DNA of 64,000 nucleotides, taken from Daejeonella sp. JGW-45. Lineage in GTDB: Bacteria; Bacteroidota; Bacteroidia; Sphingobacteriales; Sphingobacteriaceae. The stretch covers positions 434,001 to 498,000 of the forward strand of contig NZ_JARKNC010000008.1 of NCBI RefSeq assembly GCF_029360805.1. The letters run 5' to 3'. The position numbers and the translations under genes were made by a program. The notes under the pieces are model-generated. The model saw only the letters and a list, made by a program, of their open reading frames with translations. It did no database searches and had not been told where the DNA came from. Positions 5,701 to 21,447 of the stretch are shown here, in pieces (position 1 is the first letter of the stretch; every line of letters begins with the position of its first letter).

Positions 5701-7005
5701 ATGGTAGAGAAACTTATCGAATTTTCATTGCGAAACAGATTTCTGGTTTTGCTTTTAGCCGCAGGAATATTTGGCTGGGGTATCTATTCTGTTAAAACCA
5801 GCAAAATTGATGCAATACCAGATTTGTCAGAAAACCAGGTAATCGTATTCACTGAATGGATGGGGAGAAGTCCTCAGATTATCGAAGATCAAATTACCTA
5901 TCCGTTGGTGACAAACCTTCAGGGTTTGCCAAAAGTGAAGTATGTAAGAGCCAATTCCATGTTCGGAATGAGCTTTATCTATATAATTTTTGAGGATAAT
6001 ATAGATGTTTACTGGGCTCGTTCACGAGTACTTGAACGGTTAAACTCCATTGGGAATGCCCTACCGGAAGGTGTTACGCCAACTATGGGTCCCGATGGAA
6101 CAGGTGTCGGGCATGTATTATGGTATACGCTGGACGCTCCGGGAATGGATCTTGGCGAACAACGGGCTGTTCAGGATTGGTATATTAAATTCGCACTTCA
6201 AAATGTACCTGGAGTTAGTGAAATTGCATCTTTCGGTGGTTTTCAAAAGCAATATCAAATTAATATTGATCCAAATAAGCTCACTTACTACAAGCTCTCT
6301 GTATCTGATATAACCCGTGCTGTTAATACCAATAACAATGAAGCAGGCGGGCGCAAATTTGAGATGAATGATGTAGGATACATTATTAAAACTACCGGAT
6401 ATCTGAAGTCCATTGAGGAAATGGAAAACCTGGCTGTTCGTACTCAAAATTCAATTCCTGTTAAAATAAAAGATGTTGCAACTGTGCAAATGGCGGGTGA
6501 AAGCCGCCTTGGAATATTTGACTACAACGGAGAGGGTGAAGTAGTAGGCGGAATTGTGGTACTTCGATACGGCGAGAACGCAGATGAAGCTATACAAAAA
6601 GTAAAAGCAAAAATGACCGAGGTAAGCAAAGGTCTACCCGAAGGAATGAAATTCAATATTGTGTATGACAGAGGTGAATTGATTGAAGAGTCCATATCAT
6701 CTATCAAGAATACGCTTATAGAGGAAATGATTGTGGTTTCTCTCATAGTCATTGCGTTTTTATTTCACTGGAGAAGCGCAGTTAGTATTATTATTCAAAT
6801 CCCAATTACAATAGCTGCCAGCTTTATTATACTGAATGCTTTTGATATTTCATCAAATATTATGTCCCTCACCGGTATTGCACTTGCCATTGGAGTAATT
6901 GTCGACAATGGAATTATTATGGCTGAAAACGCCTATAAACATCTTGCCGTTAGGCAAGCTGAACTTAATGAATTAAGAAAAGGAGGACAAACAGATGCGC
7001 AATAA
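5701..7005 (+). CDS. cusA: CusA-type RND pump, N-terminal half (operon 1)
   Basis: 434 residues corresponding to the first part of a heavy-metal-efflux RND permease: TM1 (RFLVLLLAAGIFGWGIYSV), the first periplasmic porter region (FGMSFIYIIFED, DGTGVGHVLWYTLD, ASFGGFQKQYQI) and TM2-TM4, ending with GIALAIGVIVDNGIIMAENA. The Asp in VIVD is the expected proton-relay position of TM4. The frame stops just after TM4 in the cytoplasmic loop, while normal family members continue to about 1,040 residues. The rest is encoded by the overlapping gene at 6995. The homologous pump at 14460 is split at the same place. Metal specificity (Cu/Ag) is inferred from the neighbours. Confidence 0.85.
   Translation: MVEKLIEFSLRNRFLVLLLAAGIFGWGIYSVKTSKIDAIPDLSENQVIVFTEWMGRSPQIIEDQITYPLVTNLQGLPKVKYVRANSMFGMSFIYIIFEDNIDVYWARSRVLERLNSIGNALPEGVTPTMGPDGTGVGHVLWYTLDAPGMDLGEQRAVQDWYIKFALQNVPGVSEIASFGGFQKQYQINIDPNKLTYYKLSVSDITRAVNTNNNEAGGRKFEMNDVGYIIKTTGYLKSIEEMENLAVRTQNSIPVKIKDVATVQMAGESRLGIFDYNGEGEVVGGIVVLRYGENADEAIQKVKAKMTEVSKGLPEGMKFNIVYDRGELIEESISSIKNTLIEEMIVVSLIVIAFLFHWRSAVSIIIQIPITIAASFIILNAFDISSNIMSLTGIALAIGVIVDNGIIMAENAYKHLAVRQAELNELRKGGQTDAQ
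6980..6986 (+). promoter_or_regulatory. strong Shine-Dalgarno before the second pump half
   Basis: AAGGAGG ends 8 bases before the ATG at 6995 and lies inside the last codons of the upstream ORF. It is the best ribosome-binding site I noticed in the window, in a phylum that seldom relies on such sites. It supports separate initiation, or coupled re-initiation, of the C-terminal half. Confidence 0.6.
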
Positions 7006-8944
7006 ATTCAACACCTTTTTCAAAAGAAAGAACCGACAGGATGATTATGTAAAGCTTAATAATGAAGAGCGATTAAGCATTATTGAGAAAGCCTGTAAGC
7101 AGGTATCACGTGGTGTTTTTTACTCTACTGTAATTATAATAACTTCTTTTCTGCCAGTATTTCTTTTAACCGGACAAGAAGGAAAGCTTTTTCACCCGCT
7201 AGCTTATACCAAGACGTTTATATTAATTGTAGATGCTTTTCTGGTGGTAACCCTGGCTCCCGTTATTATTTCCTTCTTCATGAAAGGAAGATTCAGATCT
7301 GAACATGAAAACCCGATTAACCGATGGTTGGAAAAGAAGTATGAACCAATTATCCGGGCTTGTATGAAGTATCGGAAAACAACATTGGGAATAAATATCC
7401 TTGCTTTATTAATCAGCATTCCTTTAGTAATGAGCCTGGGCAGGGAGTTTATGCCTCCACTTGATGAACAATCTATTTTGTTCATGCCAGTTACTTTACC
7501 GGATGTTTCAAATGCAGAGGCCAAACGTATTTTACAGGTTCAGGACAAATTAATTAAATCAGTACCGGAAGTTGATAAGGTTTTAGGAAAAGCTGGGAGA
7601 GCGAATACAGCAACTGATAATTCGCCTATCAGCATGATTGAAACCATTGTATCCTTAAAACCGAAGAGCGAGTGGCGACCTGGAATAACTAAAAAGGATA
7701 TCATAGCGGAATTGGATGCAAAACTTCAGATCCCCGGAGTAGTCAACGGATGGACACAGCCAATCATTAACCGGATTAATATGCTTTCGACAGGTATTCG
7801 TACCGATGTTGGGGTTAAAGTTTACGGCCAGGATTTAAATCAAATTGCTGCTGTCTCACAAAAAGTTCAAACATTATTGCAAAATATTGAAGGAGTTAAA
7901 GACTTATATGTTGAACCCGTTACCGGAGGAAAGTATCTTGAAATAGATATAAAACGAGACCAACTTGAGCGGTATGGCTTGACAGTAGATGATATTAACG
8001 CAACGGTTGAAACTGCTATTGGTGGTGCTCCATTCGGTACTACCATTGAAGGAAGACAACGGTTTAATATCCATTTAAGGCTTGGTCAGGATTACCGGAA
8101 TAGCATTGACAGAATTAAGCGTATCCCTATAAATTCCCCGGATGCCGGCACCATTCCGCTTTCCGCAGTTACTGATATACGCTTTGCGGACGGCCCTCCA
8201 ATGATCACTTCCGAAAATGCACTTTTAAGAGGGGCGGTAATGTTCAATGTAAGAGAGCGGGATCTGGGAAGCACTGTTCAGGAGGCAATAGATAAGTTGA
8301 ACAAAGATCTAAAGCTGCCGAATGGATACTTTGTAGAATGGAGCGGACAATATGAAAACTTAATTCGCGGGCAACAGACTTTAATTTACATCCTGCCCAT
8401 TGTATTGATCATTATTTTCATATCCCTATATCTGGCATTTAAATCTGCGAGAGAAGCATTTCTAAGTTTAGTAACCATTCCTTTTGCGCTAATCGGCGGT
8501 GCCTATCTTATTTACTTCTGGGGAGTTAATATGTCGGTGGCAGTTGCGGTTGGGTTTATCGCATTATTTGGTATTGCGGTGGAAACCGGGGTTGTTATGG
8601 TTATTTATCTGAATGATGCAATGAAACAACTGGTTGCTTTGAAAGGAAATTCAAGCGAAACTATTACAAAAGAAGATTTAAGGGAATATGTAATCAACGG
8701 GGCAGCAAAACGCCTGCGCCCAAAGATCATGACTGTCTGCGTGGCTCTTTTTGGTTTAATACCTGTGTTATGGTCGACAGGTGTGGGTAGCGACATGATG
8801 CAACCCATTGTCTTACCAATGATCGGAGGGGTTTTAACTTCATCTACGCATATCCTGCTGGTTACCCCGCTCATCTTTCTGATGACAAAAGAATATGAAT
8901 TAAAAAAGTTTGGAAAATTGGAGGTGCACGATGTACATCATTAG
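6995..8944 (+). CDS. cusA: CusA-type RND pump, C-terminal half (operon 1)
   Basis: 649 residues. After about 40 charged N-terminal residues it resumes the RND fold: TM5 (FYSTVIIITSFLPVFLLTG), TM6, TM7, the second porter region (FMPPLDEQSILFMPVT, INRINMLSTGIRTDVG, TTIEGRQRFNIHLR, DGPPMITSENA) and TM8-TM12. It overlaps the first half by 11 bp in the +1 frame. Of the three E. coli CusA methionine ligands, as I recall them, those in NMLSTG and PPMITSEN are kept, while the GGAM position reads GGAP. The two halves would assemble as a 4-TM plus 8-TM complex. Confidence 0.85.
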   Translation: MRNKFNTFFKRKNRQDDYVKLNNEERLSIIEKACKQVSRGVFYSTVIIITSFLPVFLLTGQEGKLFHPLAYTKTFILIVDAFLVVTLAPVIISFFMKGRFRSEHENPINRWLEKKYEPIIRACMKYRKTTLGINILALLISIPLVMSLGREFMPPLDEQSILFMPVTLPDVSNAEAKRILQVQDKLIKSVPEVDKVLGKAGRANTATDNSPISMIETIVSLKPKSEWRPGITKKDIIAELDAKLQIPGVVNGWTQPIINRINMLSTGIRTDVGVKVYGQDLNQIAAVSQKVQTLLQNIEGVKDLYVEPVTGGKYLEIDIKRDQLERYGLTVDDINATVETAIGGAPFGTTIEGRQRFNIHLRLGQDYRNSIDRIKRIPINSPDAGTIPLSAVTDIRFADGPPMITSENALLRGAVMFNVRERDLGSTVQEAIDKLNKDLKLPNGYFVEWSGQYENLIRGQQTLIYILPIVLIIIFISLYLAFKSAREAFLSLVTIPFALIGGAYLIYFWGVNMSVAVAVGFIALFGIAVETGVVMVIYLNDAMKQLVALKGNSSETITKEDLREYVINGAAKRLRPKIMTVCVALFGLIPVLWSTGVGSDMMQPIVLPMIGGVLTSSTHILLVTPLIFLMTKEYELKKFGKLEVHDVHH

Positions 8945-10178
8945 AAATTTTATCCTGCTTGTATTGTTAGCTGTTTCTACCATTGCATACGGTCAGGAAG
9001 TATTAACCCTGGATAAAGTATTACAGGAAATTAACGCAAATAATCCAACCCTAAAGGCTTTTGACAGTCAGGTAAAAAGCCAGGACGCAAAGGTTGAAGG
9101 AGCCGGATCATGGATGGCTCCAATGGTTGGTGTAGGAACTTTTATGACGCCGTATCCCGGTTCAATGGTTATGGATGAAGCTGATAGAGGAGCCTGGATG
9201 TTGTCAGCGGAACAGGATATTCCTAATCCCGCTAAGACAAAAGCAAAGGCAAAATACCTTGCCGCCCAGTCGTCTATTACGAGAGCTGCACAGGCGGCAC
9301 AAGCCAATCAATTAAGAGCGAGGGCGAAACAACTTTATTATGAACTATTGGTAGCTGATAAAAAGATTGCTTTCCAGAAGGAAAACCAGACTATTATGGG
9401 GACCATGAAAAAGCTTGCAGAAATTCGCTATCCATACAACCAAGGCTCATTAAGTCAGGTTTTTAAAGCTGAAGGGCGGCTTTATGAGTCAGAAAATATG
9501 ATTTTAATGACTGAAAGTGAGATTAAGTCTAAAAAGATCGCTTTGAATGCATTAATGTACAGGCCTGTTAATTCAGATTTTACTGTAGATACAACTAAAA
9601 AGGTCGTTTTTACTCCACTTGCTGTTCTGGATACTTCTTATTTAGCAACGAACAGAAGTGATATTCAGCAAATGGATAGATCGATTCGTGCTATGGAACT
9701 TAACATTAATCAAATGCGGCAGGAGGCCAAGCCTGATTTCCGTATACGATTGGAACATATGTCCCCACGCGCGGAAATGATGCCAAATCAATATACGCTT
9801 ATGGGAATGATATCTATTCCAATTGCTCCGTGGTCATCTAAAATGTATAAGTCTGAGATTAAGTCCATGAATTTTGAGCGTGAGGCCATGCGTCAGCAAA
9901 AGGAAGGTATGCTATCGGAGATGCTTGGAATGACTAAATCCATGGAAACTGAAGTGTTAAACATGCAAACCCAGTTAAGAAATTACGAAACTAAAATATT
10001 GCCTGCTCTAAATAAGAATTTAAAAGTATCTATGCTTTCTTATCAGGAGAATAAAGGTGATGTGAATACGGTAATTGATGGTTGGGAAGCCGTAAATATG
10101 TCTCAGATGAACTATTTGGAACAATTACAGAAATTTTATCAAATGATTGTTGAATATGAAAAGAATATTGAAAGGTAG
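8931..10178 (+). CDS. cusC: TolC-type outer membrane efflux protein (operon 1)
   Basis: 415 residues. ATG 8931 is preferred to an upstream TTG because it opens the signal peptide ([20 protein letters not shown]) and has GGAGGT at 8920-8925. Long coiled-coil helices and duplicated repeats are typical of outer membrane efflux channels. Motifs include the [19 protein letters not shown] region. It overlaps the end of the pump gene by 14 bp and is overlapped by the next gene, so translation is coupled. Confidence 0.85.
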
Positions 10179-11511
10179 TTTTCCAATAGTCGTTTTATTT
10201 GCTATTCTTTTACTATCAGCCTGTAAAGGAAAGAATAAGCAGGCAGAAACAACAGAGGCGACTAAATATACTTGTCCCATGCATCCTCAAATAGTTAAAG
10301 ATGCGCCGGGATCATGTCCTATTTGCGGAATGGATTTAGTACCAATGAATTCATCGGGGAAAGATGGGGGTGTTAATGATACACTGGCAGCCCTGGTTAA
10401 ACCAACGAATGAGGTTGTGCTTTCAGGAATAAAAACTATAAAGCCCCAAACGGGCTCGCGTTTTCAGGATATAAATGTAAAAGGAGTCATCAATTACAAT
10501 ACGAATAATCAAAATTCGGTTTCGTCGAGAGTAAGTGGAAGGATTGAGAAATTGTACGTAAAGTATAACTATCAGCCAGTATCCAAAGGTCAAAAGCTTA
10601 TGGATATTTATAGTCCGGATTTAGCGAATGCCCAACAGGAGTTACTCTTTTTAAAAAATAACAATGAGCCTGCTCTTTTAGAACAGGCAAAAAGAAAACT
10701 TCGGCTCTTAGGAGCTACGGAACAACAGATCAAACAAGTTCTCAGCACTGGAAAAGTAGATTATACAGTAAGTATCTACAGCCCGTATTCAGGTTATGTA
10801 TCAGAACTTCAAAATACTTCAGCCTCCGCTGGGGGGCTAAGTTCAGCAGGCAGTACAATGATTACATCTGAATCCTCGGGTGGTAGCTCTTCTATGGGGG
10901 GAATGGCGGGTTCTTCTGGGGCCTCTGCTTCCAACGCAACACCTTCAGTTCCTGATGTAGCCACTAATTCTCCTTTACAATTGAGAGAAGGACAATACGT
11001 ATCTGTAGGACAAAAGCTGTTTAGCTTAGTTAATTCCAATGTGATCTGGGCTGAATTTTATGTAAATCCTTCTGATATAGATAAGTTTAAAAGAGGTACA
11101 ATGATTGAGGTGCAATCAGTTGATGTGAAGACTAAAAGAAATAGAGTCCCGGTAAGCTTAATCCAACCATACTATAGTGAAGGAACAAACTATTCCCTTG
11201 TCCGAGCTACTGTTAACAATTCAGATAAATCATGGAAAGTTGGGGAACTGATCACTGTAAAAAGTGAAAGTACCCGGAAAATTGGCAACTGGCTGCCGCG
11301 TACCGCTGTACTTCAATTGGGTACCCGCTATGTTTCATTCATTAAGAAAAATAATGCATTTGTCCCTGTTTACGTAGCTGTAAAAAGTGTTTCAGGAGAA
11401 TGGATAGATATAGGGAACAGCATAGATATGACACAGGATGTAGCTGTAAACGCATGGTTCCTGATAGATAGTGAAAGCTTTATTAATGTACAAAGTATAA
11501 CCAGACAATAA
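10156..11511 (+). CDS. cusB: membrane fusion protein with HMBD, CusB type (operon 1, first)
   Basis: 451 residues from ATG 10156. Lipobox LLSACKG, then an HMBD module ([20 protein letters not shown]), then barrel-sandwich and hairpin segments ([36 protein letters not shown]) and C-terminal beta domains. A Gly/Ser/Met-rich insert of roughly 50 residues (near residues 225-275, including [14 protein letters not shown]) interrupts the lipoyl-like domain; the paralogue at 18958 has a similar insert in the same place. It bridges the RND pump and outer membrane channel and can deliver Cu/Ag. Confidence 0.85.
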
Positions 11512-11513
11512 AT

Positions 11514-12722
11514 ATGGAAAGGAAAAGATTTATAAAGAGTTTAGCAGTGCTTACGCTAGCTCCTTCTCTGTTTATTGCAGCTTGTAAAAATGAGAAAAAG
11601 GCCGCTTTATCTCAAAAATATACCTGCCCGATGCACCCTCAGGTGATAAAAGATGCTCCAGGCTCTTGCCCCATTTGCGGAATGGATTTGGTTCCTGTTA
11701 GTAATGGTAGCGATAAAAATGAGCTTATATTAATGGACAGCCAAATTCAGCTAGCCAATATTACAACAATGCAAATTGCAACAAGTAATTTTGGGACTTC
11801 TAAAGTATTAAATGCAAGGTTGGTTACAAATCCTGAACTTTCAGAAGTAATCTCAAGCAGGTACGCCGGGCGTATTGAACGGTTATTTGTCAAAGAAACG
11901 GGCCGTCAGGTTTCTAAAGGACAGCCCCTTTTTCAGATTTATAGTGAAGAACTTCAAACGCTTCAGCAAGACTACTTACTCCAGGTAAAACAAGCCGCTG
12001 CATTTCCTAACGAGAAGATTTATGTTACTCTTCGGGAAGCAGCTAAAAATAAACTCCGATTATTTGGATACTCAAATGCTCAGATCGAGAGCCTGGCTCG
12101 AGGCAATAAAACTTCACCGGTTGTAACCGTCAATGCCACTGCTTCAGGTGTCGTTAACGAAGTGAGTGTTTCAGAAGGTCAGTACGTTTCTGAGGGTTCC
12201 CCAATTATAAGATTAGAAAATTTTAGCCAGCTATGGGTAGAAGCAGATGTTTATCCGGGTGAAGCTAGTTCAATAAAAGCGGGCACTCCTATCAAAGTAT
12301 CTGTTAATGGATTTCCTGAGTTAGAACAGACAGTAAAAATAAATTTCATTTCACCTCAAATTGATCCTTCAAGCCAAATATTAAAAGTTAGGGCACCTAT
12401 ACAAAGTCAGGGCAAATTGCAATCTGGAATGCAGGCCACTGTATTATTAAATACGGCAAAAATCAATAATGCAGTTGCGTTGCCTCTCAATGCAGTAATT
12501 CGGGATGGTAAAGGCGCCCACGTTTGGATTAAAACGGGCAAAAATACGTTCGCTCCAAAGATGGTTATAACCGGACAGGAAGACGAGAACCAAATTATCA
12601 TCACCTCAGGATTAGAGAATGTTAAAGAAGTAGTGGTAAGTGGTGCTTATCTTTTATCAAGCGAATTTATCTTAAAGAAGGGTTCTGATCCTATGGCTGG
12701 CCACGATATGAGTCAAATGTAA
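11514..12722 (+). CDS. second membrane fusion protein with HMBD (operon 1)
   Basis: 402 residues, starting 2 bp after the first fusion protein. Lipobox FIAACKN, HMBD module ([20 protein letters not shown]), then the CusB-like core (SSRYAGRIERLFVKETGRQV, SEGQYVSEGSPIIRLENFSQ). The C-terminus ends DPMAGHDMSQM. Two different fusion proteins per operon occur in both efflux loci of this window, which suggests the assembled pump uses a mixed adaptor ring. No terminator is evident right after it. Confidence 0.85.
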   Translation: MERKRFIKSLAVLTLAPSLFIAACKNEKKAALSQKYTCPMHPQVIKDAPGSCPICGMDLVPVSNGSDKNELILMDSQIQLANITTMQIATSNFGTSKVLNARLVTNPELSEVISSRYAGRIERLFVKETGRQVSKGQPLFQIYSEELQTLQQDYLLQVKQAAAFPNEKIYVTLREAAKNKLRLFGYSNAQIESLARGNKTSPVVTVNATASGVVNEVSVSEGQYVSEGSPIIRLENFSQLWVEADVYPGEASSIKAGTPIKVSVNGFPELEQTVKINFISPQIDPSSQILKVRAPIQSQGKLQSGMQATVLLNTAKINNAVALPLNAVIRDGKGAHVWIKTGKNTFAPKMVITGQEDENQIIITSGLENVKEVVVSGAYLLSSEFILKKGSDPMAGHDMSQM

Positions 12723-12767
12723 ATTAACGCGCAATCGACTTGCATACATGTAACCTAACACGTAAAA

Positions 12768-12935
12768 ATGGAGCTTTTATTTTACCATAAATTTAACTTA
12801 GGGAAGATCGCTAATAAGTTAGGCTATAGCAGCATCGCTCATCTTTCAGCTCAGTTTAAAAAAGTTACAGGCTCAACTCCTTCTCTTTTCAAAAAAGCCA
12901 GAGCCCCTAGACAAGCGATAGATTCGATTATTTAA
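12768..12935 (+). pseudogene. remnant of an AraC-type DNA-binding domain
   Basis: A 55-codon frame encodes only the last helix-turn-helix part of an AraC-family regulator (LGKIANKLGYSSIAHLSAQF, then KKVTGSTPSLFKK). A stop codon lies four codons upstream in frame, and nothing earlier resembles the rest of the protein, so it is a 5'-truncated remnant. It closely resembles the end of the second AraC-like locus at 12959-13552. Confidence 0.6.
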
Positions 12936-12958
12936 CTGTTCCCTCAACCCAACTAATA

Positions 12959-13552
12959 ATGACAGAACTGTATATAAAGAATATGGTTTGCCTATGCTGC
13001 ATTCATATTGTTAAAATGGAGGTAGAGAAAGCTGGCTGTACGCCAATAGCCATTGACTTCGGTATTGTAAAAGTTAAGGAAGATTTAACTGATAAAGTCT
13101 TAGATGAAATTTCTAAAAAACTTCAAAAATATGGATTAGGCCTGATAAATACATTCAAAAGCATTATTGTCGAGAAGATAAAAACTATTGTAATACGATA
13201 TATTCATTCAGCCGATATCCTCCCTTAAAAAATTGACTGGTATAATATAATTTCAGGGCAACTGAGTCAGAAATACTCGCCGTACCAAATAACTAAACTA
13301 TTTCCTATTGTCGAGGGCGTTACGTTGGAGCATTTTATTATTATCCAAAAAACAAAGCGTGCAGAGGAATTGCTATTCCAAAACGAACTAACTCTTACCG
13401 AAATATCAAAAAAACTAGGTTATGCCAACTTACCTCATTTGTCCGGACAATTCAAAAAAGTTACTGGATTTACTCCCACACAATATAAAGCAAAAAGAGT
13501 AGAAAGGGCTCGAAAAACTAGTCGCTCTAAACAAGGCTCCACTGTCATGTAA
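12959..13552 (+). pseudogene. AraC regulator with HMA-like N-terminus, in-frame stop
   Basis: Reading one frame from 12959 to 13552 gives a complete Bacteroidota regulator of the type with an HMA-like head (MTELYIKNMVCLCCIHIVKM) and an AraC helix-turn-helix (LTEISKKLGYANLPHLSGQF). It is interrupted by a single TAA at 13226-13228. The sequence after the stop continues the family (KIDWYNIISGQLSQKYS, ITKLFPIVEGVTLEHFI) with no shift, so one nonsense change explains the break. The intact relative would sense a soft metal and control the neighbouring efflux genes. Two separately made domains cannot be excluded. Confidence 0.7.
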
Positions 13553-13664
13553 ACCAATATAATTCTTTGCCTGATTAAATATAAAAGTTTCTTATGTATT
13601 AGAAAGGTGATGATGCATTATAACTTTCCTGTATTTATTAATACAGAATTAGTGATAAGATTCA

Positions 13665-13696
13665 CTGCTTTATGTGATCCTAATCATATAAAGCAG
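13665..13696 (+). promoter_or_regulatory. 14-bp RNA hairpin upstream of HYC_CC_PP gene
   Basis: ctgctttatgtgat (13665-13678) pairs with atcatataaagcag (13683-13696) across a 4-base loop. All 14 pairs form if one G-U is allowed. It ends 38 bases before the GTG start and has no T-run, so it is more likely a leader structure or operator than a terminator. A smaller hairpin (ctgtatt/aatacag, 13629-13646) precedes it. Confidence 0.35.
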
Positions 13697-13734
13697 CTAC
13701 TAGTATTTATACATTTACTAATAATTTTACTCTT

Positions 13735-14127
13735 GTGAAGAACTTTGCAGTTTTCATATTGGCTCTTTTATACATCACCACATCTTCTGGTGTAGTGATA
13801 AACATGCACTATTGCATGGGAAAATTGACTGATTGGAGCATATCACAAAGCAAAGATGTCGTTTGCTCAAATTGCGGCATGAAAGAAAGCGAAAGTAATG
13901 GCTGCTGCAAAGACCAACAACAGTTTCTTAAAATTGATAAAGATCAGAAAACTCCCAATACGTCTTATCAATTAGCACAGTTTGCATCTGATGCTCTAAT
14001 CCACAATTATTTCGAATTAAGTGCTGCACATGTTCCTTCATTAATGGAAGAACACCCGCTTGTAAAAGCACCTCCCCGAGTTCAAAATTTACCTCTTTTC
14101 ATTCGTAATTGCGTTTACAGGATATAA
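13735..14127 (+). CDS. HYC_CC_PP family exported protein (second clear copy)
   Basis: 130 residues from a GTG start; this start gives a clean signal peptide (KNFAVFILALLYITTSSGV). Motifs in order: MHYCMGKL, VCSNCGM, GCCKDQ, KAPPR and FIRNCVYRI. Closely related to the protein at 3511-3903. It stands alone between the broken regulator and the second efflux operon. Confidence 0.75.
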   Translation: MKNFAVFILALLYITTSSGVVINMHYCMGKLTDWSISQSKDVVCSNCGMKESESNGCCKDQQQFLKIDKDQKTPNTSYQLAQFASDALIHNYFELSAAHVPSLMEEHPLVKAPPRVQNLPLFIRNCVYRI

Positions 14128-14459
14128 TCCTTGCGACTAAAGGATAAAAGGGGAGCAATTTAGGTTTGTAGATAATAACAAATACAAGATACTTAATCCC
14201 GCCAACGGATTACTAATTTTTGCCTACAAGCATTCGCCCCACTCCCCCAAGAAACTGCAAAATATTTTCCAATGTACTATTCAGTATATATGGATTTTTC
14301 ACACCACAGTCTCTGCCTAAAACAAAAATTAAAATAGCATTTCTGTGGTTATGATCCTTTTTAGATCGCACCAACCTTTTATAATATCAATAAACATAAA
14401 ATGCTTTCGCGAATAGCCATTCAGGTATATGCTTACATCAAACATTAAATGCAGATGAA
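14128..14459. other. gene-free gap before efflux operon 2
   Basis: 332 AT-rich bases with no convincing ORF. A small hairpin (atcctt/aaggat) lies just after the HYC_CC_PP stop. I see no sure TAnnTTTG promoter box. The promoter of operon 2 should be here, but I cannot place it. Confidence 0.4.
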
Positions 14460-15740
14460 ATGATCGAAAAAATTATCACCTGGTCAATTAATAACCGATT
14501 TTTTGTATGGTTAGGGATAGTCATGATTGCCATTGGCGGAATATATTCCATCAAGAACATGCCGGTTGATGCGATCCCTGATCTTTCTGAAAATCAGGTG
14601 ATCGTTTACACAGAGTATATGGGCCGTAACCCGAAGATCATGGAAGATCAGATTACATATCCACTGGTTTCCAATTTACAGGGGATTCCGAAAATCAAAT
14701 CTATCCGGGCCGCTTCCATGTTTGGTATGAGTTTCATCTTTGTCGTGTTTGATGATGGAGTTGATGAGTACTGGGCCCGTACCCGTGTTCTTGAGCGACT
14801 AAATTATGCTCAGCGATTTTTGCCGCAAGGTGTTACCCCTACGCTGGGACCGGATGGAACTGGCTTAGGCCATGTATTTTGGTATACATTAGATGGAGAT
14901 GGTTATAATCTTGGAGAGTTGCGGGCATTACAGGACTGGTATGTAAAGTTTGCACTGCAGAATGTGGATGGGGTAAGTGAAGTAGCCTCTTTTGGTGGGT
15001 TTCAAAAGCTTTACCAGGTAACCATTGATCCTCATAAGCTAATCTATTATGGGGTACCTTTAATGGATATTACCCGGGCTGTAACTGCAAATAACCGGGA
15101 TGTGGGCGGAAGTCTTTACGAAATGAATTCCACCGGCTACCTGATCCGGGGACAAGGTTATATAACCGGCCTTGAAGATATAAGAGATATTTCCATCGGT
15201 ACATATAAGTCAATTCCTGTTCTGCTCAGTGACGTTGCCGATGTTCAAATGTCAGCTGATTTAAGATTAGGGATAGTGGATGAAAATGGTGAAGGTGAGG
15301 TAGTAGGCGGCATTGTAGTCATGCGTTTTGGTGAGAATGCAAAGGATGTAATAGAGCGGACGAAAGTAAAGATGCAGGAGGTAGAAAAAGGTCTACCTGT
15401 CGGTGTAAAATTCAAAACTGCTTATGATCGAAGTGATTTGATTTTGGCATCTATAGATACCTTGTCCGAGTCGTTGTGGCAAATGATCGTGATTGTTTCC
15501 ATTGTAGTAATTGTTTTCTTATTCAGCATCCGTAGTGGTTTGATTGCCATTGTCTGCATCATTTTATCTGTACTTATAGGATTTATCTTGATGCAATTTT
15601 TTGGGGTGACCTCTAACATCATGTCATTGGGTGGAATTGCCCTTGCTATCGGAGATGTAGTAGACCCTGGGATAGTAATGGCCGAGAATGCCTACCGTTC
15701 GCTAACAAACCGTGTTTTAAAAACTCAAACCGAAGATTAG
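14460..15740 (+). CDS. cusA: CusA-type RND pump, N-terminal half (operon 2)
   Basis: 426 residues: TM1, the first porter region (FGMSFIFVVFDD, DGTGLGHVFWYTLD, ASFGGFQKLYQV) and TM2-TM4, ending GIALAIGDVVDPGIVMAENA. As in operon 1 the ORF ends just after TM4, in the cytoplasmic loop. TM4 is unusual: it reads GDVVDPG where the other copy has GVIVDNG, adding a second Asp and a Pro. The stop TAG is followed after one base by the ATG of the other half, so re-initiation is likely. Confidence 0.85.
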   Translation: MIEKIITWSINNRFFVWLGIVMIAIGGIYSIKNMPVDAIPDLSENQVIVYTEYMGRNPKIMEDQITYPLVSNLQGIPKIKSIRAASMFGMSFIFVVFDDGVDEYWARTRVLERLNYAQRFLPQGVTPTLGPDGTGLGHVFWYTLDGDGYNLGELRALQDWYVKFALQNVDGVSEVASFGGFQKLYQVTIDPHKLIYYGVPLMDITRAVTANNRDVGGSLYEMNSTGYLIRGQGYITGLEDIRDISIGTYKSIPVLLSDVADVQMSADLRLGIVDENGEGEVVGGIVVMRFGENAKDVIERTKVKMQEVEKGLPVGVKFKTAYDRSDLILASIDTLSESLWQMIVIVSIVVIVFLFSIRSGLIAIVCIILSVLIGFILMQFFGVTSNIMSLGGIALAIGDVVDPGIVMAENAYRSLTNRVLKTQTED

Positions 15741-15741
15741 T

Positions 15742-17688
15742 ATGTCAGCAGTTAAAATAGAAAAAGTAAAGGAGCGGATCGGCAATACAAATGAAATTTC
15801 CGATGAAGAACGTGTGGAAATTATAAGGGAATCTTCAAAAATGATAGGGCGCTCTGTGTTCTTTTCAGTCCTCATTATGATTATTTCATTCGCACCAATT
15901 TTATTCCTTACCGGGCAGGAGTTTAAAATGTTTAGCCCCCTTGTTCTGACCAAGACATTTTCACTTATTGGTGCCGCTATCCTTGCAATTACTGTTGCTC
16001 CCATGTTAACGCGGACGTTTATGAAAGGAAAGCTTATACCGGAGAGCCGTAACCCGGTCTCTAACTTATTTATCACCCTTTATAAACCCGTTGCCCGTTT
16101 TTGTCTTAGCTGGCGCAAAACAATTCTAGCTGCATGCCTGGCATTGCTGATTGGAAGTATTCCATTAGTAACTAACCTGGGGTCAGAATTTATGCCCCCT
16201 CTCGATGAAGGTTCTTTACTGTTTATGCCTGTAACACTTCCCGATGTTTCCAATTCTGAGGCCAAAAGAATTATTCAGTTACAGGATAAAATTATTAAAA
16301 GTTTCCCGGAAGTAGAGAATGTACTGGGAAAAGCAGGCAGGGCCAATACAGCTACTGATAACTCACCGATAAGCATGATTGAGACCATAGTGATCTTAAA
16401 ACCAAAGGATCAGTGGCGGAAGGGAATGACCAAAGCAAAGCTGATTTCAGAAATGAATGAAAGAGTTCAGATACCCGGTGTCAGTGTTGGATGGACCATG
16501 CCTATAATAAATCGGATAAACATGCTATCTACTGGTATCCGGACAGATGTTGGGATAAAAATATACGGCAAAAACCTCGATAGCATATACAATCTTAGCC
16601 GCCGGGTCGAAAGCACTATTAAGGGAATAGAAGGTTTGGCAGATTTGTATGTAGAGCAGCTTACGGGAGGCAAATATCTCGATATAAAAATACGCAGGCG
16701 TGACATAGCCCGCTATGGCCTCAACGTAGACGATGTAAATATGGTCATTGAGAGCGCCCTGGGTGGGATGATCCTGACCACAACCGTTGAGGGAAGGGAA
16801 CGCTTTAATGTTAACCTTCGGTTAGCGCAGGAATACAGAAATGATATTCATGAAATTGAACGAATTCCAATTCAAACCACGAATTATGGAGTAGTTCCCA
16901 TTTCTGCCGTTGCCGATGTAAAAATTACGGAAGGCCCGCCTATGATCAGTTCTGAAAACGCTATGCTGAGAGGAACCGTGCTGTTTAACGTCCGCGGACG
17001 GGATATGGGAAGTGTAGTAAAAGATGCGAAAGAACGGATTGATGAGGCTTTTAAAAGGCTGCCGCAGGGTTATTATATCGAATGGAGTGGACAGTATGAA
17101 AATCAGGTGCGAGCCAACCAACGCTTAAGCATCATCATACCCATCGTTTTTCTGATTATTGCTTTTATCTTATTTATTACTTTTCATTCCTATAAGGCTG
17201 TACTCATGGTCTTTGTGAGTATTCCAGTGGCTCTGATCGGGGGTGTCTACTCTTTATACTTTTACAATGTCAATTTCTCTGTGGCAGTTGCTGTAGGGTT
17301 TATTGCCCTCTTTGGTGTGGCCGTAAGTACCGGTGTACTCATGATCTCTTATCTCAATGATACCGTTAAAAAATTGGTGCAGGAAAAAGGGAACAATCCA
17401 CAAGCCATCAGTCTTCGGGCGCTTAAGGAAGCTATTTTGTTTGGAGCTACCCAGAGAGTGCGGCCACTCCTCATGACAGTTCTGGCGAATATCCTGGGTT
17501 TGATACCCGTGCTGGTATCAACAGGCACAGGAAGTGACGTAATGAAACCCATAACCATTCCCTTTGTATTTGGGTTAATTACGGCAACTCTTTTTGTATT
17601 GATTGTTCTGCCGGTCATTTTCAATCTGGTAAAAGAGTGGGAATTAAAAAAGAGTGGGAAACTCGAAATTATGCAAATAAGTGAATAA
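15742..17688 (+). CDS. cusA: CusA-type RND pump, C-terminal half (operon 2)
   Basis: 648 residues. A charged 35-residue lead-in is followed by TM5-TM7, the second porter region (FMPPLDEGSLLFMPVT, INRINMLSTGIRTDVG, TTVEGRERFNVNLR, EGPPMISSENA) and TM8-TM12. It is in the +1 frame relative to the first half with a one-base gap. Compared with recalled E. coli CusA ligands, Met is kept in NMLSTG and PPMISSEN; the third region reads GGMIL instead of GGAMV. It is about as long as its counterpart in operon 1 (649 residues). Confidence 0.85.
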   Translation: MSAVKIEKVKERIGNTNEISDEERVEIIRESSKMIGRSVFFSVLIMIISFAPILFLTGQEFKMFSPLVLTKTFSLIGAAILAITVAPMLTRTFMKGKLIPESRNPVSNLFITLYKPVARFCLSWRKTILAACLALLIGSIPLVTNLGSEFMPPLDEGSLLFMPVTLPDVSNSEAKRIIQLQDKIIKSFPEVENVLGKAGRANTATDNSPISMIETIVILKPKDQWRKGMTKAKLISEMNERVQIPGVSVGWTMPIINRINMLSTGIRTDVGIKIYGKNLDSIYNLSRRVESTIKGIEGLADLYVEQLTGGKYLDIKIRRRDIARYGLNVDDVNMVIESALGGMILTTTVEGRERFNVNLRLAQEYRNDIHEIERIPIQTTNYGVVPISAVADVKITEGPPMISSENAMLRGTVLFNVRGRDMGSVVKDAKERIDEAFKRLPQGYYIEWSGQYENQVRANQRLSIIIPIVFLIIAFILFITFHSYKAVLMVFVSIPVALIGGVYSLYFYNVNFSVAVAVGFIALFGVAVSTGVLMISYLNDTVKKLVQEKGNNPQAISLRALKEAILFGATQRVRPLLMTVLANILGLIPVLVSTGTGSDVMKPITIPFVFGLITATLFVLIVLPVIFNLVKEWELKKSGKLEIMQISE

Positions 17689-17697
17689 ACAGCTTAT

Positions 17698-18954
17698 ATG
17701 AAACCTATATTATCCATATTACTTAGCCTGGTGCTTACAGTAAGTTCTATCAAAGCACAGGATACCGTTCGTCTTTCTCTGCCGGAGATATTCAAAGAAG
17801 TTGATAAATCCTATCCGCTATTACGAGTTTATCAAAACCGGATCAATAGTATAAGAGCTCTTGCCGAAGGTGCCAAAAGTTGGATGCCGCCCACTCTTTC
17901 CGTGGCAATTGACAAGTTTCCCTATCAGTTAAGTATGATCAGGGAAAAATCCCCTATGAACCAGGCCGGCTTCATGTTTTCAGCTCAACAAATGATTCCA
18001 AACGCTGCGAAACTCAATGCAAAAAGAGACTTTATTCTTTCGCAGCAGGACATATCCAGCAATGAAGCCGAATGGGAAAAAAATGTTCTTCATTATTCTG
18101 CCCGGCTTTACTACTATCGCCGTTTCACTGCTGAAAGGAAATTAAAGCTGGTGAATGATTATGAAGGGCTATTAAAGATGCTTATCAAAACAGCAAGGGA
18201 TAAATACGTTTATAACCAGTCTGACCTGCCTTCCATCTTTAAAGCAGAAGCTTCTCTTAGTGAGTTGAAAAATATGGAAACCATGTTACTTTCACAGGTT
18301 GCCGAAAGTACTATCGGGATTAATACGCTATTGAACAGGGATGTAAATACCCCGTTTGCAATTGATTCACTTTTACAGCCAACAGATTATCAGGCCGATT
18401 TTGTGAATACTGGTGATACGACGTCTCTAAACCGCAGCGATATTCTTGCAACTGAAAGCCGGATACGTTCCATGCAAAGCAGCCTTCGGTTGGCTGCCAC
18501 AGGTTTGAAGCCTGACTTTGGCATCCAGTTCTCTCACGGGCAGATGTTTGGTATGCCTAACCAATTTTCCCTAATGGGCATGGTTACGATCCCCATTGTT
18601 CCCTGGTCGTCGCGAATGTATAAGTCCGAAGTTCGTTCCATGAATTTCGATATTGAAGCCATGCAAAACGAACGGTCAACCATGCGTTTAATGACGAGGC
18701 AAATGATCCGCGAAAAAATCACTATGCTCAACTTTGAGAATCAGCAGCTGAGAAATTTCGATATCAGCATTTTACCCGCTTACCGAAAAAATCTTGAAAG
18801 TAACCTCCTCGCCTATCGTCAGAATACCGGTAATTTTTTTGTGTTACTGGATGCCTGGACCATGCTGATGATGAAAGAAATGGAACGCATTGATAAACTC
18901 GCGCAGGTGTTTGCCATTCAATCAGAATACGAATACCAACGGGAAAAAAAATAA
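17698..18954 (+). CDS. cusC: TolC-type outer membrane efflux protein (operon 2)
   Basis: 418 residues, signal peptide ending SIKAQ, then long helical repeats of the outer membrane efflux family. It shares the IPIVPWSSRMYKSEVRSMNF motif with the operon 1 protein. It lies 9 bp after the pump and 3 bp before the fusion protein, in the same order (pump, channel, two fusion proteins) as operon 1. Confidence 0.85.
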   Translation: MKPILSILLSLVLTVSSIKAQDTVRLSLPEIFKEVDKSYPLLRVYQNRINSIRALAEGAKSWMPPTLSVAIDKFPYQLSMIREKSPMNQAGFMFSAQQMIPNAAKLNAKRDFILSQQDISSNEAEWEKNVLHYSARLYYYRRFTAERKLKLVNDYEGLLKMLIKTARDKYVYNQSDLPSIFKAEASLSELKNMETMLLSQVAESTIGINTLLNRDVNTPFAIDSLLQPTDYQADFVNTGDTTSLNRSDILATESRIRSMQSSLRLAATGLKPDFGIQFSHGQMFGMPNQFSLMGMVTIPIVPWSSRMYKSEVRSMNFDIEAMQNERSTMRLMTRQMIREKITMLNFENQQLRNFDISILPAYRKNLESNLLAYRQNTGNFFVLLDAWTMLMMKEMERIDKLAQVFAIQSEYEYQREKK

Positions 18955-18957
18955 GCC

Positions 18958-20295
18958 ATGAAAAAAAATATTCTATATACGATCAGGCAGTATTCACTTG
19001 CTGCATCTGGTTTCATCATGTTGCTGCTTTTGGCTTCCTGTAGTTCAAACGGGAATCAGCAGGAACATGAAGGAAGCCATACAACTGAAACCGATACCGT
19101 GGCCGGAATGAATAAAGATTCACAGATGAAAGACCATTCTAATATGGACCATTCAAATGAAAAAGCCGAAGATCATCAACAGATGGAAATGCAGCCAGCC
19201 CGGGATACACTGGATGAACTTTACCTGAGTGCGCTGCCCGCCAATCAAAGCGTTATTTCAAAACAATCGGCCGTACCAGTGAAAGACAGTATCCAGCAAT
19301 TTACAATTACCGGACAAGGTTACATCACGTTCGACCCAAGGAGAAACCGGAAAATTTCTGTGCGCTTCGGCGGACGAATAGAACGCCTTTACGCAAAATA
19401 CAATTACCAGTACGTACGTAAAGGAGAAAAGATCATGGAAATATATAGCCCTGACTTAAACACATATGTTTCTGAATACATTTATATACGCCAGAAAAGC
19501 AATGATCTGGAATTGATGAAAAAAGCAAAGCAAAAGTTATTACTTCTCGGCCTTTCCGATGCCCAGATTGCCCAAATTGATAAAAACCCTGCTGCCCCAT
19601 TTACCATATCCATTTACAGTCCTTTTGAGGGCTATGTGCTATTTAATCCTTCGGCGTCCAGTAGCGGTATGACTTCTTCTGGTCCGCAGGGAGGCATGGG
19701 TGGCGGAATGAATAGCGGAGCGGCCGAATCCACAGGTACCGCCAGTACTTCGTTAGACGATAATTCTATCAGGGAAGGAATGTATGTCAGTAAAGATCAA
19801 ACGGTTTTTTGGATCAATGATTTCCAAACCGTATTGGGCGTCGTCGCCTTTTCACATGAAAACGAAAAGATTGCAAAACCCGGATTAGATGTTGTAGTAA
19901 AAAGTGAACTTTTTCCAGACCAAACCTTTCGGTCAGTTGTCCGGATGGTAGAGCCGGTTTACAGGGGTGCTCAGAAGTTTACACAAGCCCGCCTATATTT
20001 TTCCAACCCAAATCGAAAGCTCAAACAAAACTCTCTCATCAGGGCCAGTGCTTTAGTTAATTCGGGCTCTCTGATTGTTCCTGCAAGCAGTGTTTATCAT
20101 GTGGGAAGCACCGCAATCGTTTGGGTCTTAAAAACAAAAACTAAAGATGGGAGCAACGTTTTTCAGGCAAGAGCAATAAGAACCGGCAACCGAAGTAACG
20201 AATACATTGAAGTATTAAAAGGATTGAACAGTAGCGAATTTGTTGCTAAAGATGCTGGCTACCTGGCAGATAGTGAAACCATAATACAATATTAA
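18958..20295 (+). CDS. cusB: membrane fusion protein, CusB type (operon 2, first)
   Basis: 445 residues with lipobox LLASCSS. Instead of the HMBD module found in operon 1 it carries a Met/His-rich segment (MKDHSNMDHSNEKAEDHQQM). The core has ISVRFGGRIERLYAKYNYQY and IYSPDLNTYVSEYIYI. A Gly/Ser/Met insert (MTSSGPQGGMGGGMNSG) sits at the same point as in the operon 1 protein. It probably couples pump and channel and binds Cu/Ag through Met residues. Confidence 0.85.
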   Translation: MKKNILYTIRQYSLAASGFIMLLLLASCSSNGNQQEHEGSHTTETDTVAGMNKDSQMKDHSNMDHSNEKAEDHQQMEMQPARDTLDELYLSALPANQSVISKQSAVPVKDSIQQFTITGQGYITFDPRRNRKISVRFGGRIERLYAKYNYQYVRKGEKIMEIYSPDLNTYVSEYIYIRQKSNDLELMKKAKQKLLLLGLSDAQIAQIDKNPAAPFTISIYSPFEGYVLFNPSASSSGMTSSGPQGGMGGGMNSGAAESTGTASTSLDDNSIREGMYVSKDQTVFWINDFQTVLGVVAFSHENEKIAKPGLDVVVKSELFPDQTFRSVVRMVEPVYRGAQKFTQARLYFSNPNRKLKQNSLIRASALVNSGSLIVPASSVYHVGSTAIVWVLKTKTKDGSNVFQARAIRTGNRSNEYIEVLKGLNSSEFVAKDAGYLADSETIIQY

Positions 20296-20298
20296 ATT

Positions 20299-21447
20299 AT
20301 GAAACGGAACAATATAATAATCATAGCGATTGGGGTGATGGTTTTGTGGGGAATATTTTTAACGGCTGCATGTACGAATGACAAAAAGGTGGCTGAGCAG
20401 GAGGAACATACAGAGGCACATGCCGCTCCTGACTCCTCTGGTAAAGAGATCTTATCTCTTACCGACCAGGATGAAAGGCATGCAAATATTAGGATTGATA
20501 CCGTCAGGACAAAATCAATGGCGGAATTTTCTACGGTATTGGGAACTGCTAATTTTGATCAACGAAAACTCACTGTAATTACTTCGCGGATTCGTGGCAG
20601 GCTTGATAAATTATTTGTAAGAAATCCGCAGCAATACGTAAGGGAAGGAGAGCCAATTTATGCCATTTATAGTGAGGAACTCATAGCATACGAAAATGAA
20701 TTGCTGACTGCCATTCAAATGAAAGCGAACCCGAGTGATTTAAAGGTATCATTTGACCAGCTTATTGAGGCAGCCAGGAAAAAATTGTTTCTGCTGGGAC
20801 TAACCAACTTTCAAATTGAGCAAATAGAGAAATCTGGTGTTGCCTCAGCCCTGGTTACCTTTTACAGCCCGGTTTCCGGCACCTTAACGGACTTGCCTGT
20901 AAGCGAAGGGCAATATGTGGAGGAAGGTACAGCCATGTTCAGTATTGCTGATATGTCGCGACTTTGGATAGAGGCCCAAATGTATGTTAATGAATTGAAG
21001 TGGTTAGATGGCGGGGCAGCCATACAGGCAGAATTTGACGCGTTGCCAGGAGAAATATTTACGGTTGTGCCGGTATTTGATAACCCAAGCTTAGAAGCAG
21101 ACAGTAAAATAAGCCTCGTGAGATTTCAGGTCGAAAATCCTACTAATAAATTGAGGCCTGGAATGATGGCATATATCAGCATCAAAAGGAATGAGAAAAA
21201 GACTATGGTGATTCCAAAGAGCTCGATAGTGGTTGGCGAAATGATTTCTGCCTGGGTAAAGACCGCAAAAGGAACGTACGAAAACCGGATGATCCAGTTG
21301 GGCATTCAGAATAAAAAAGAAGTAGAAGTGCTTAGCGGTTTAAAAGAAGGCGAATTAATAGTAACCAATGGCGCTTACTTGCTCAACAGTGAGTTAATAC
21401 TAAAAAAAGGAACTGGAATGCCGGGCATGGAAGGAATGGATATGTAG
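20299..21447 (+). CDS. second membrane fusion protein (operon 2)
   Basis: 382 residues starting 3 bp after the first fusion protein. Hydrophobic start with a lipobox-like TAACTN, a short His/Glu-rich linker, and the CusB core (TSRIRGRLDKLFVRNPQQYV, SEGQYVEEGTAMFSIADMSR). It ends in a Met-rich tail (GMPGMEGMDM). It pairs with the first fusion protein as in operon 1. Confidence 0.85.
   Translation: MKRNNIIIIAIGVMVLWGIFLTAACTNDKKVAEQEEHTEAHAAPDSSGKEILSLTDQDERHANIRIDTVRTKSMAEFSTVLGTANFDQRKLTVITSRIRGRLDKLFVRNPQQYVREGEPIYAIYSEELIAYENELLTAIQMKANPSDLKVSFDQLIEAARKKLFLLGLTNFQIEQIEKSGVASALVTFYSPVSGTLTDLPVSEGQYVEEGTAMFSIADMSRLWIEAQMYVNELKWLDGGAAIQAEFDALPGEIFTVVPVFDNPSLEADSKISLVRFQVENPTNKLRPGMMAYISIKRNEKKTMVIPKSSIVVGEMISAWVKTAKGTYENRMIQLGIQNKKEVEVLSGLKEGELIVTNGAYLLNSELILKKGTGMPGMEGMDM

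Follow-up and report, generated by a model that had tools for sequence, protein, structure and literature searches.

We analysed a window of 64,000 nt from Daejeonella sp. JGW-45 (NCBI RefSeq assembly GCF_029360805.1, contig NZ_JARKNC010000008.1, positions 434,001 to 498,000 of the forward strand), which carries two loci, pump 1 and pump 2, for CusA-type permeases of the resistance-nodulation-division (RND) class. In both loci the permease is divided between two open reading frames (ORFs), an N half and a C half. Judged from sequence, both loci very probably encode two-chain CusA-type RND pumps that represent a genuine and widespread variant of CusA. We favour this reading because the half-genes are intact and co-inherited, are under purifying selection, are broken at a conserved position, keep the functional residues and occur throughout a whole clade.

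The original prediction, made from the letters of this stretch, was that both pump genes stop after transmembrane segment (TM) 4 and restart before TM5. ORF coordinates (Table 1) and coverage of the TIGR00914 (CusA/CzcA) profile agree with it. The halves of pump 1 cover profile positions 1–429 and 429–1037 (459.8 + 645.7 bits) and those of pump 2 cover 1–424 and 429–1042. Thus, hardly any pump sequence is lost at the break, which lies at the same place in both pumps, in the cytoplasmic TM4–TM5 loop. On the ACR_tran domain (PF00873; 1021 positions), the halves of pump 1 match 2–422 and 416–1019, and each of them alone scores below the curated TIGR00914 cut-off of 701.45. The predicted distribution of 4 + 8 TMs was borne out for pump 1 by hydropathy (overlapping windows merged by hand) and by the helices of AlphaFold models. 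The ORF coordinates also reproduce the junctions as first described, namely an 11-nt overlap in pump 1 and a 1-nt gap in pump 2, with the C half in the +1 frame in both. In a mechanical ORF list the N half of pump 1 extends up to 5635. We placed its start at the CusA-homologous ATG at 5701, as this Met aligns with Met 8 of the CusA crystal-chain sequence. E. coli CusA is the best match of the pump 1 halves, both by sequence and by predicted fold (the models being mediocre).

We searched family, class and phylum samples with the C half of pump 1. These samples share genomes, so the counts are not additive, and the split state of places without fetched sequence was judged by open-frame length. 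We observed the following. In the family sample, 58 of 121 genomes matched at 68 places, 65 of which are open frames of 637–728 aa; the remainder comprises one single-chain pump (41% identity), one broken copy and one place at a contig start. In the class sample (395 genomes), 55 genomes matched at 66 places. At an identity of at least 50%, 59 of the 63 places are split-size (631–728 aa) and four are single-chain, while all three places below 50% are single-chain. The phylum sample (395 genomes) gave 120 matching genomes; its 31 top-scoring places (at least 54% identity) are all split-size, and the next group, at 53–55% identity, is single-chain, mostly of ∼1,050 aa. Split-size places span 22 family codes of the class and two outside it (hand count from tables), and ORF pairs with the same break were found in dozens of Bacteroidota genomes. 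The best 80 named genome-contig loci by scan consist of 47 split loci, 31 single-chain loci and 2 cut at contig ends. All 47 split loci have Bacteroidota titles, and their hosts include Pedobacter, Mucilaginibacter, Chitinophaga, Rufibacter, Pontibacter, Adhaeribacter, Flavobacterium, Cytophaga, Kaistella and Ohtaekwangia. Environmental type strains with a split operon include Mucilaginibacter lappiensis (L143) and Pedobacter chitinilyticus (L122). In Runella slithyformis and Adhaeribacter swui, the plasmid-borne copies are each annotated as two coding sequences, and both records label each half 'efflux RND transporter permease subunit'.

To place these pumps in a tree, 184 pump entries at loci were reduced to 171 by length and partner filters and to 142 by removal of near-copies. 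Both trees described here are quick maximum-likelihood trees with SH-aLRT support and without bootstrap; no mixture model was used for the first, which came with a program warning that long branches meet among the distant single-chain rows. In the 142-pump tree, a single Bacteroidota clade (SH-aLRT 100) contains 106 split and five single-chain pumps, and the remaining 31 pumps, from several phyla, are all single-chain. Named loci from Pedobacter, Mucilaginibacter and Sphingobacterium cluster with genomes of the host family. When 68 selected rows were analysed under a mixture model, the resulting tree gave the same picture, with four state changes. The possibility considered with the original prediction, that the close homologues are all single-chain, is at odds with a clade in which 106 of 111 members are split. 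The two window pumps fall in different subgroups of this clade. Independent breaks in the two are unlikely, since both belong to one clade whose members are normally split. The ancestry of this clade includes either a single fission or, less probably, two, one per subgroup.

The single-chain members inside the split clade are L181, L112–L114 and L115. From the tree, halves were probably re-fused at least twice. L181 and the L112–L114 group are the most likely cases, because a tree in which all 53 split rows were forced into one clade that excludes the single-chain rows was rejected (AU p 1.2e-58; two trees compared, with the group chosen after the first tree was known). L115 may be either an ancestral single chain or re-fused. 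It is unlikely, though not very unlikely, that no re-fusion took place and that the single-chain members are ancestral, the split having arisen by several fissions. Fewest-change counts do not distinguish gain from loss, and L115, the sister of the pump-2 group, fits either direction. However, supported branches place L181 and L112–L114 deep within the split pumps, single-chain L113 has a Met where the related C halves start, and several fissions would all have to fall in one identical loop; the rejection of a single split clade is also against it.

A few places at the margin of this distribution were noted. A possible split outside the clade, in G775, is a single-chain pump cut by a contig end. 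Genome G803 (L219 1088-2956), lower down in the phylum sample, has a short C-half-like ORF of a distant subfamily (42–44% identity, open frame 622), and no recognisable N half is present on its 19-kb contig. In L183 (9979-11742; Planctomycetota), a 588-aa C-half-like ORF lies directly 3' of a single-chain pump. In phage records, the RND matches are all below 60% identity among the matches listed (10 of 45 records).

Next, we asked how closely the two halves belong together. When the class sample was searched with the N half, each of the 59 split C halves proved to be accompanied by an N half in its genome, with one N-half place per C-half place (hand count). N halves without a C partner in the tables are those of G261 (C half in pieces), G293 (C half cut by the contig start) and G273 (contig ends inside the N half). 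The distance matrices of the N and C halves are correlated over 106 pairs (r 0.901; none of 500 permutations as high). The nearest neighbour is identical for both halves in 65 of 106 split pairs, and the N and C parts of single chains agree in 23 of 35. Wherever dS was estimable, dN/dS is 0.02–0.04 in both halves (nine pairs, with at least one half saturated in six). Both halves are under strong purifying selection.

The functional residues are distributed over both chains. We take the proton relay of CusA to be D405/E939/K984. In 48 chosen pairs, on which all residue counts are based, the TM4 Asp, located in the N half, is present in 48/48, and the C half has the TM10 Glu in 45/48 and the TM11 Lys in 42/48. 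Pump 1 retains the equivalents of all three. As the relay residues are divided over the chains, energy coupling would cross the subunit border, and a working pump should need both halves. In the subgroup of pump 2 (the window pump at 14460-17688 together with L116, L153, L154, L165, L169 and L170), an extra TM4 Asp (IGDVVDPG type) is present in 7/7 rows and the TM11 Lys is missing in 5/7, which suggests a changed proton relay. For the metal site, we used the Cu(I)/Ag(I) residues of CusA (methionines plus charged residues) as given in excerpts of PMC11213822. The equivalents of R83, E567, M573, D617, M623, E625, R669 and M672 are invariant in 48/48 pairs, and the ninth residue, K678, is replaced by Arg in all 48. 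These site residues, together with CusB-type and heavy-metal-binding domain (HMBD) neighbours, point to export of Cu(I)/Ag(I).

It could be argued that the halves have parted functionally, each acting alone or with other partners and not as a joint pump, given that they are independent genes and sometimes at least 4 kb apart. We consider this very unlikely: the one-to-one pairing within genomes, the correlated evolution of the halves, the relay residues spread over both chains and the likely re-fused members are all evidence against it.

We then examined whether the two ORFs could be joined into one chain of ∼1,070 residues by a programmed +1 ribosomal frameshift. The window itself is compatible with such an event, as both C halves are in the +1 frame, the ORFs abut or overlap and a Shine-Dalgarno (SD)-like motif precedes the pump 1 junction. 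This motif, however, lies 8 nt before the ATG, which is the spacing of initiation. Junctions were tabulated for 101 cleanly delimited pairs, five of the 106 split rows being omitted as their start was not assignable by script. In these pairs the N half is 419–438 aa (two at 464/467) and the C half 630–652 aa (an intact 630-aa ORF in G166), without inner stops. In the 106 split rows, the break is flanked by the ENAY/ENSY motif region at the end of TM4 and by the ER-xII-type motif that precedes TM5. The ATG of the C half is positioned −17 to +15 nt relative to the stop of the N half in 85/101 pairs and +30 to +952 nt in 12/101, and in the other four the N half is 3' of the C half. Among the 85 close pairs, frames +1, +2 and 0 occur 45, 32 and 8 times, respectively (arithmetic from the junction table). 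A small ORF with HMBD similarity is located between the halves in L097–L100 (Pfam-tested in L097), as is a 194-aa ORF without a Pfam match in L104. Nine genomes have the order C half, outer-membrane efflux protein, adaptor a, adaptor b, N half (G480, G218, G650, G665, G385, G443, G336, G361 and G293; the C half of G293 is cut by the contig start, and G361 has extra ORFs before the N half). A frameshift cannot join halves that are separated by other ORFs or arranged with the C half first.

Therefore, a frameshift was ruled out by frames, distances and gene order, and any residual probability that it acts in the window is extremely small. Because the same three properties vary, frameshifting and sequencing error are both excluded as general explanations. 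The halves are independent genes. SD-like motifs precede 26/85 close C starts, compared to 6/101 N starts, and the junction, judged without a scan for slippery sites, looks like one of coupled re-initiation rather than a slippery site. Of the two explanations offered originally, an ancestral split with a two-chain pump has thus gained strong support from its clade-wide occurrence, while the programmed frameshift is not supported.

A search of the host genome (4.1 Mb, 10 contigs) with the PF00873 profile gave 19 matches. Three of these are N halves and three are C halves; 12 are RND proteins without a split, and the last is a weak partial match. The third split pair is on host contig C3, and each of its halves shares 93% identity with its pump 1 counterpart; all three split-pump loci of the host encode as two ORFs what is otherwise a single chain of ∼1,040 residues. 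This third pair and the recurrence of the same break across the clade indicate that the break did not arise by chance, as had been argued at first from the improbability of two independent errors. That sequencing errors or pseudogene formation broke two single-chain genes has a virtually negligible probability: copies elsewhere are genuinely broken within the C half (G007, G261), but the identical break in dozens of genomes, complete plasmids annotated with two coding sequences, the third copy and the low dN/dS in both halves rule it out.

Some of the data weigh against a two-chain pump. The N/C correlation of split pairs is below the value of 0.967 obtained for 35 single-chain pumps. In two copies, L201 (G007) and L222 (G261), a stop or frameshifts interrupt the C half. 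Pump 2 keeps the D405 equivalent and is devoid of the Glu939 and Lys984 equivalents; its energetics may therefore be different. An SD-like motif is missing before 59/85 close C starts. AlphaFold models of the single halves are mediocre (pLDDT 71 and 72, ∼11 Å rmsd to CusA). Finally, L212 (G438) and L217 (G205) have intact split pairs with no recognisable adaptor or outer-membrane gene adjacent, and Pfam found no adaptor domain in the ORFs examined in L217 (four downstream, two upstream) and L212 (three).

Apart from these two loci, the clade is marked by its usual two-adaptor operon and gene order. In both window operons the N half is followed by the C half, an outer-membrane efflux protein and two CusB-type adaptors. 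The adaptor search used the window's own adaptors as queries, so very distant adaptors could escape. Both adaptor types were detected in 43/47 split loci among the best 80 named (the other four end at a contig edge) and in 15 of 18 further clade loci, with one cut (L211) and two lacking them (L212, L217). An adaptor pair is present behind 1/31 single-chain loci of the best 80 named, L181, which is itself inside the clade, and behind 0/30 single-chain pumps outside it; the single-chain in-clade L112–L115 also carry the pair. A few pump-2-type operons (L154 and one operon of L116) have no outer-membrane gene. As a strict rule for the clade, the two-adaptor operon was not borne out (L212, L217). 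Upstream of the split pair in L217 are a multicopper oxidase and an HMA/MauE gene.

An N-terminal feature of the C half was also considered. In 75 of 101 C halves the conserved core is preceded by 11 or more residues. The mean net charge over the 101 is +2.66, with three negative. The hydrophobic-moment z exceeds 1 in 37/75, and the AlphaFold helix at this terminus has a pLDDT near 50. A conserved amphipathic N-terminal helix as a general feature was therefore borne out only in part (37/75).

Features of the two window operons are listed in Table 1. The small gene 5' of pump 1 encodes a lipoprotein-like HMBD protein (TCPMHP), and related ORFs are those found between the half-genes in L097–L100. 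PADLOC gave no match for the pump 1 halves, and a defence role for them was rejected on this basis.

Table 1. Split pump genes and their neighbours in the window (OEP, outer-membrane efflux protein)
Feature	Position	Strand	Remarks
HMBD lipoprotein-like ORF, 80 aa	5453..5695	+	Pfam PF19335 E 2e-16; just 5' of pump 1
Pump 1 N half, CusA-type RND permease, 434 aa, TM1-TM4	5701..7005	+	
AAAGGAGG, SD-like	6979..6986	+	within N-half coding region, 8 nt 5' of C-half ATG
Pump 1 C half, 649 aa, TM5-TM12, copper-site methionines	6995..8944	+	
Pump 1 OEP (OEP/TolC type)	8931..10178	+	Pfam PF02321 E 3.7e-23
Pump 1 adaptor a, CusB type with HMBD	10156..11511	+	Pfam PF16576 E 5.9e-45 on 10147-11508
Pump 1 adaptor b, CusB type with HMBD	11514..12722	+	Pfam PF16576 E 2.2e-52
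Pump 2 N half, 426 aa, TM1-TM4, extra Asp in TM4	14460..15740	+	
Pump 2 C half, 648 aa, TM5-TM12	15742..17688	+	
Pump 2 OEP	17698..18954	+	Pfam PF02321 E 5.8e-16
Pump 2 adaptor a	18958..20295	+	Pfam PF16576 E 7.7e-40
Pump 2 adaptor b	20299..21447	+	Pfam PF16576 E 1e-52

On host contig C9, ∼10 kb before the window, L002 (1489-5823) is a single 1,444-aa ORF with PF00873 followed by PF02321. Three further RND places of the host (L003, L005 and L007) are in open frames of 1,446–1,468 aa; the domain scan covered L002. Split pumps and pumps fused to their outer-membrane partner seem to coexist in the host genome. Pump-1-like and pump-2-like split operons are also close together in L119/L153 (one contig) and in L116 (G274), and such neighbouring operons suggest a travelling metal-resistance island.

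We propose the following arrangement. One subunit would comprise TM1–TM4 and the first large periplasmic domain (4 TMs), the other TM5–TM12 and the second periplasmic domain (8 TMs). Each would be produced from its own gene, usually by coupled termination-reinitiation. The two would associate via the TM bundle and the porter domains into one 12-TM protomer, and the trimer would be composed of three N/C pairs. Working with an outer-membrane channel and two CusB-type adaptors that differ from each other, the assembled pump would export Cu(I)/Ag(I), and some lineages would have re-fused the halves. A bolder idea, which we regard as quite improbable, is that this constitutes a distinct N3C3 architecture that uses two dissimilar adaptors and allows exchange of the 4-TM subunit between paralogous C subunits, giving mixed pumps or a regulated assembly step. 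The presence of three N/C pairs per cell in the host is relevant to this idea.

The usual view of tripartite metal and drug pumps of the CusA type is that each trimer is built from single chains. A clade with an asymmetric 4 + 8 division, reordered genes and probable re-joining would offer a natural experiment on folding, insertion and coupling of RND proteins. The halves can escape the specific CusA name, as each is below the curated cut-off, and length-filtered surveys would miss them. Our searches of the open-licence PubMed Central literature brought up no description of a split CusA (subscription papers and preprints being outside this scope). The available portion of a survey of conserved frame transitions lists translational-coupling clusters and names no RND pump (PMC3711429).

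The proposed two-chain pump can be compared with three known systems. In TriABC and MdtABC every permease gene encodes a full-length chain, whereas the window has two genes for one permease. What these systems share with the window is an RND operon that has two adaptor genes, as in TriABC (TriA, TriB), or two permease genes, as in MdtABC (MdtB, MdtC), according to excerpts of PMC8277102. SecD/SecF is an RND core of 12 TMs that is encoded either by two separate chains or by a single fusion (PMC4139356; PMC8277102), with a 2 × 6 TM set-up (PMC8277102). It functions in protein export, and its break is between the 6-TM repeats, whereas split CusA is divided 4 + 8, inside the first repeat. The best match is E. 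coli CusA (HME-RND, TIGR00914; PDB 3k07, 3ne5), which resembles pump 1 in sequence and predicted fold, in the conserved copper-site and relay residues and in having an outer-membrane efflux protein and CusB-type adaptors in the operon. However, E. coli CusA is a single chain, while the window pumps are two chains broken between TM4 and TM5, and their gene order, permease–outer-membrane protein–adaptor–adaptor with two adaptors, is unlike that of E. coli.

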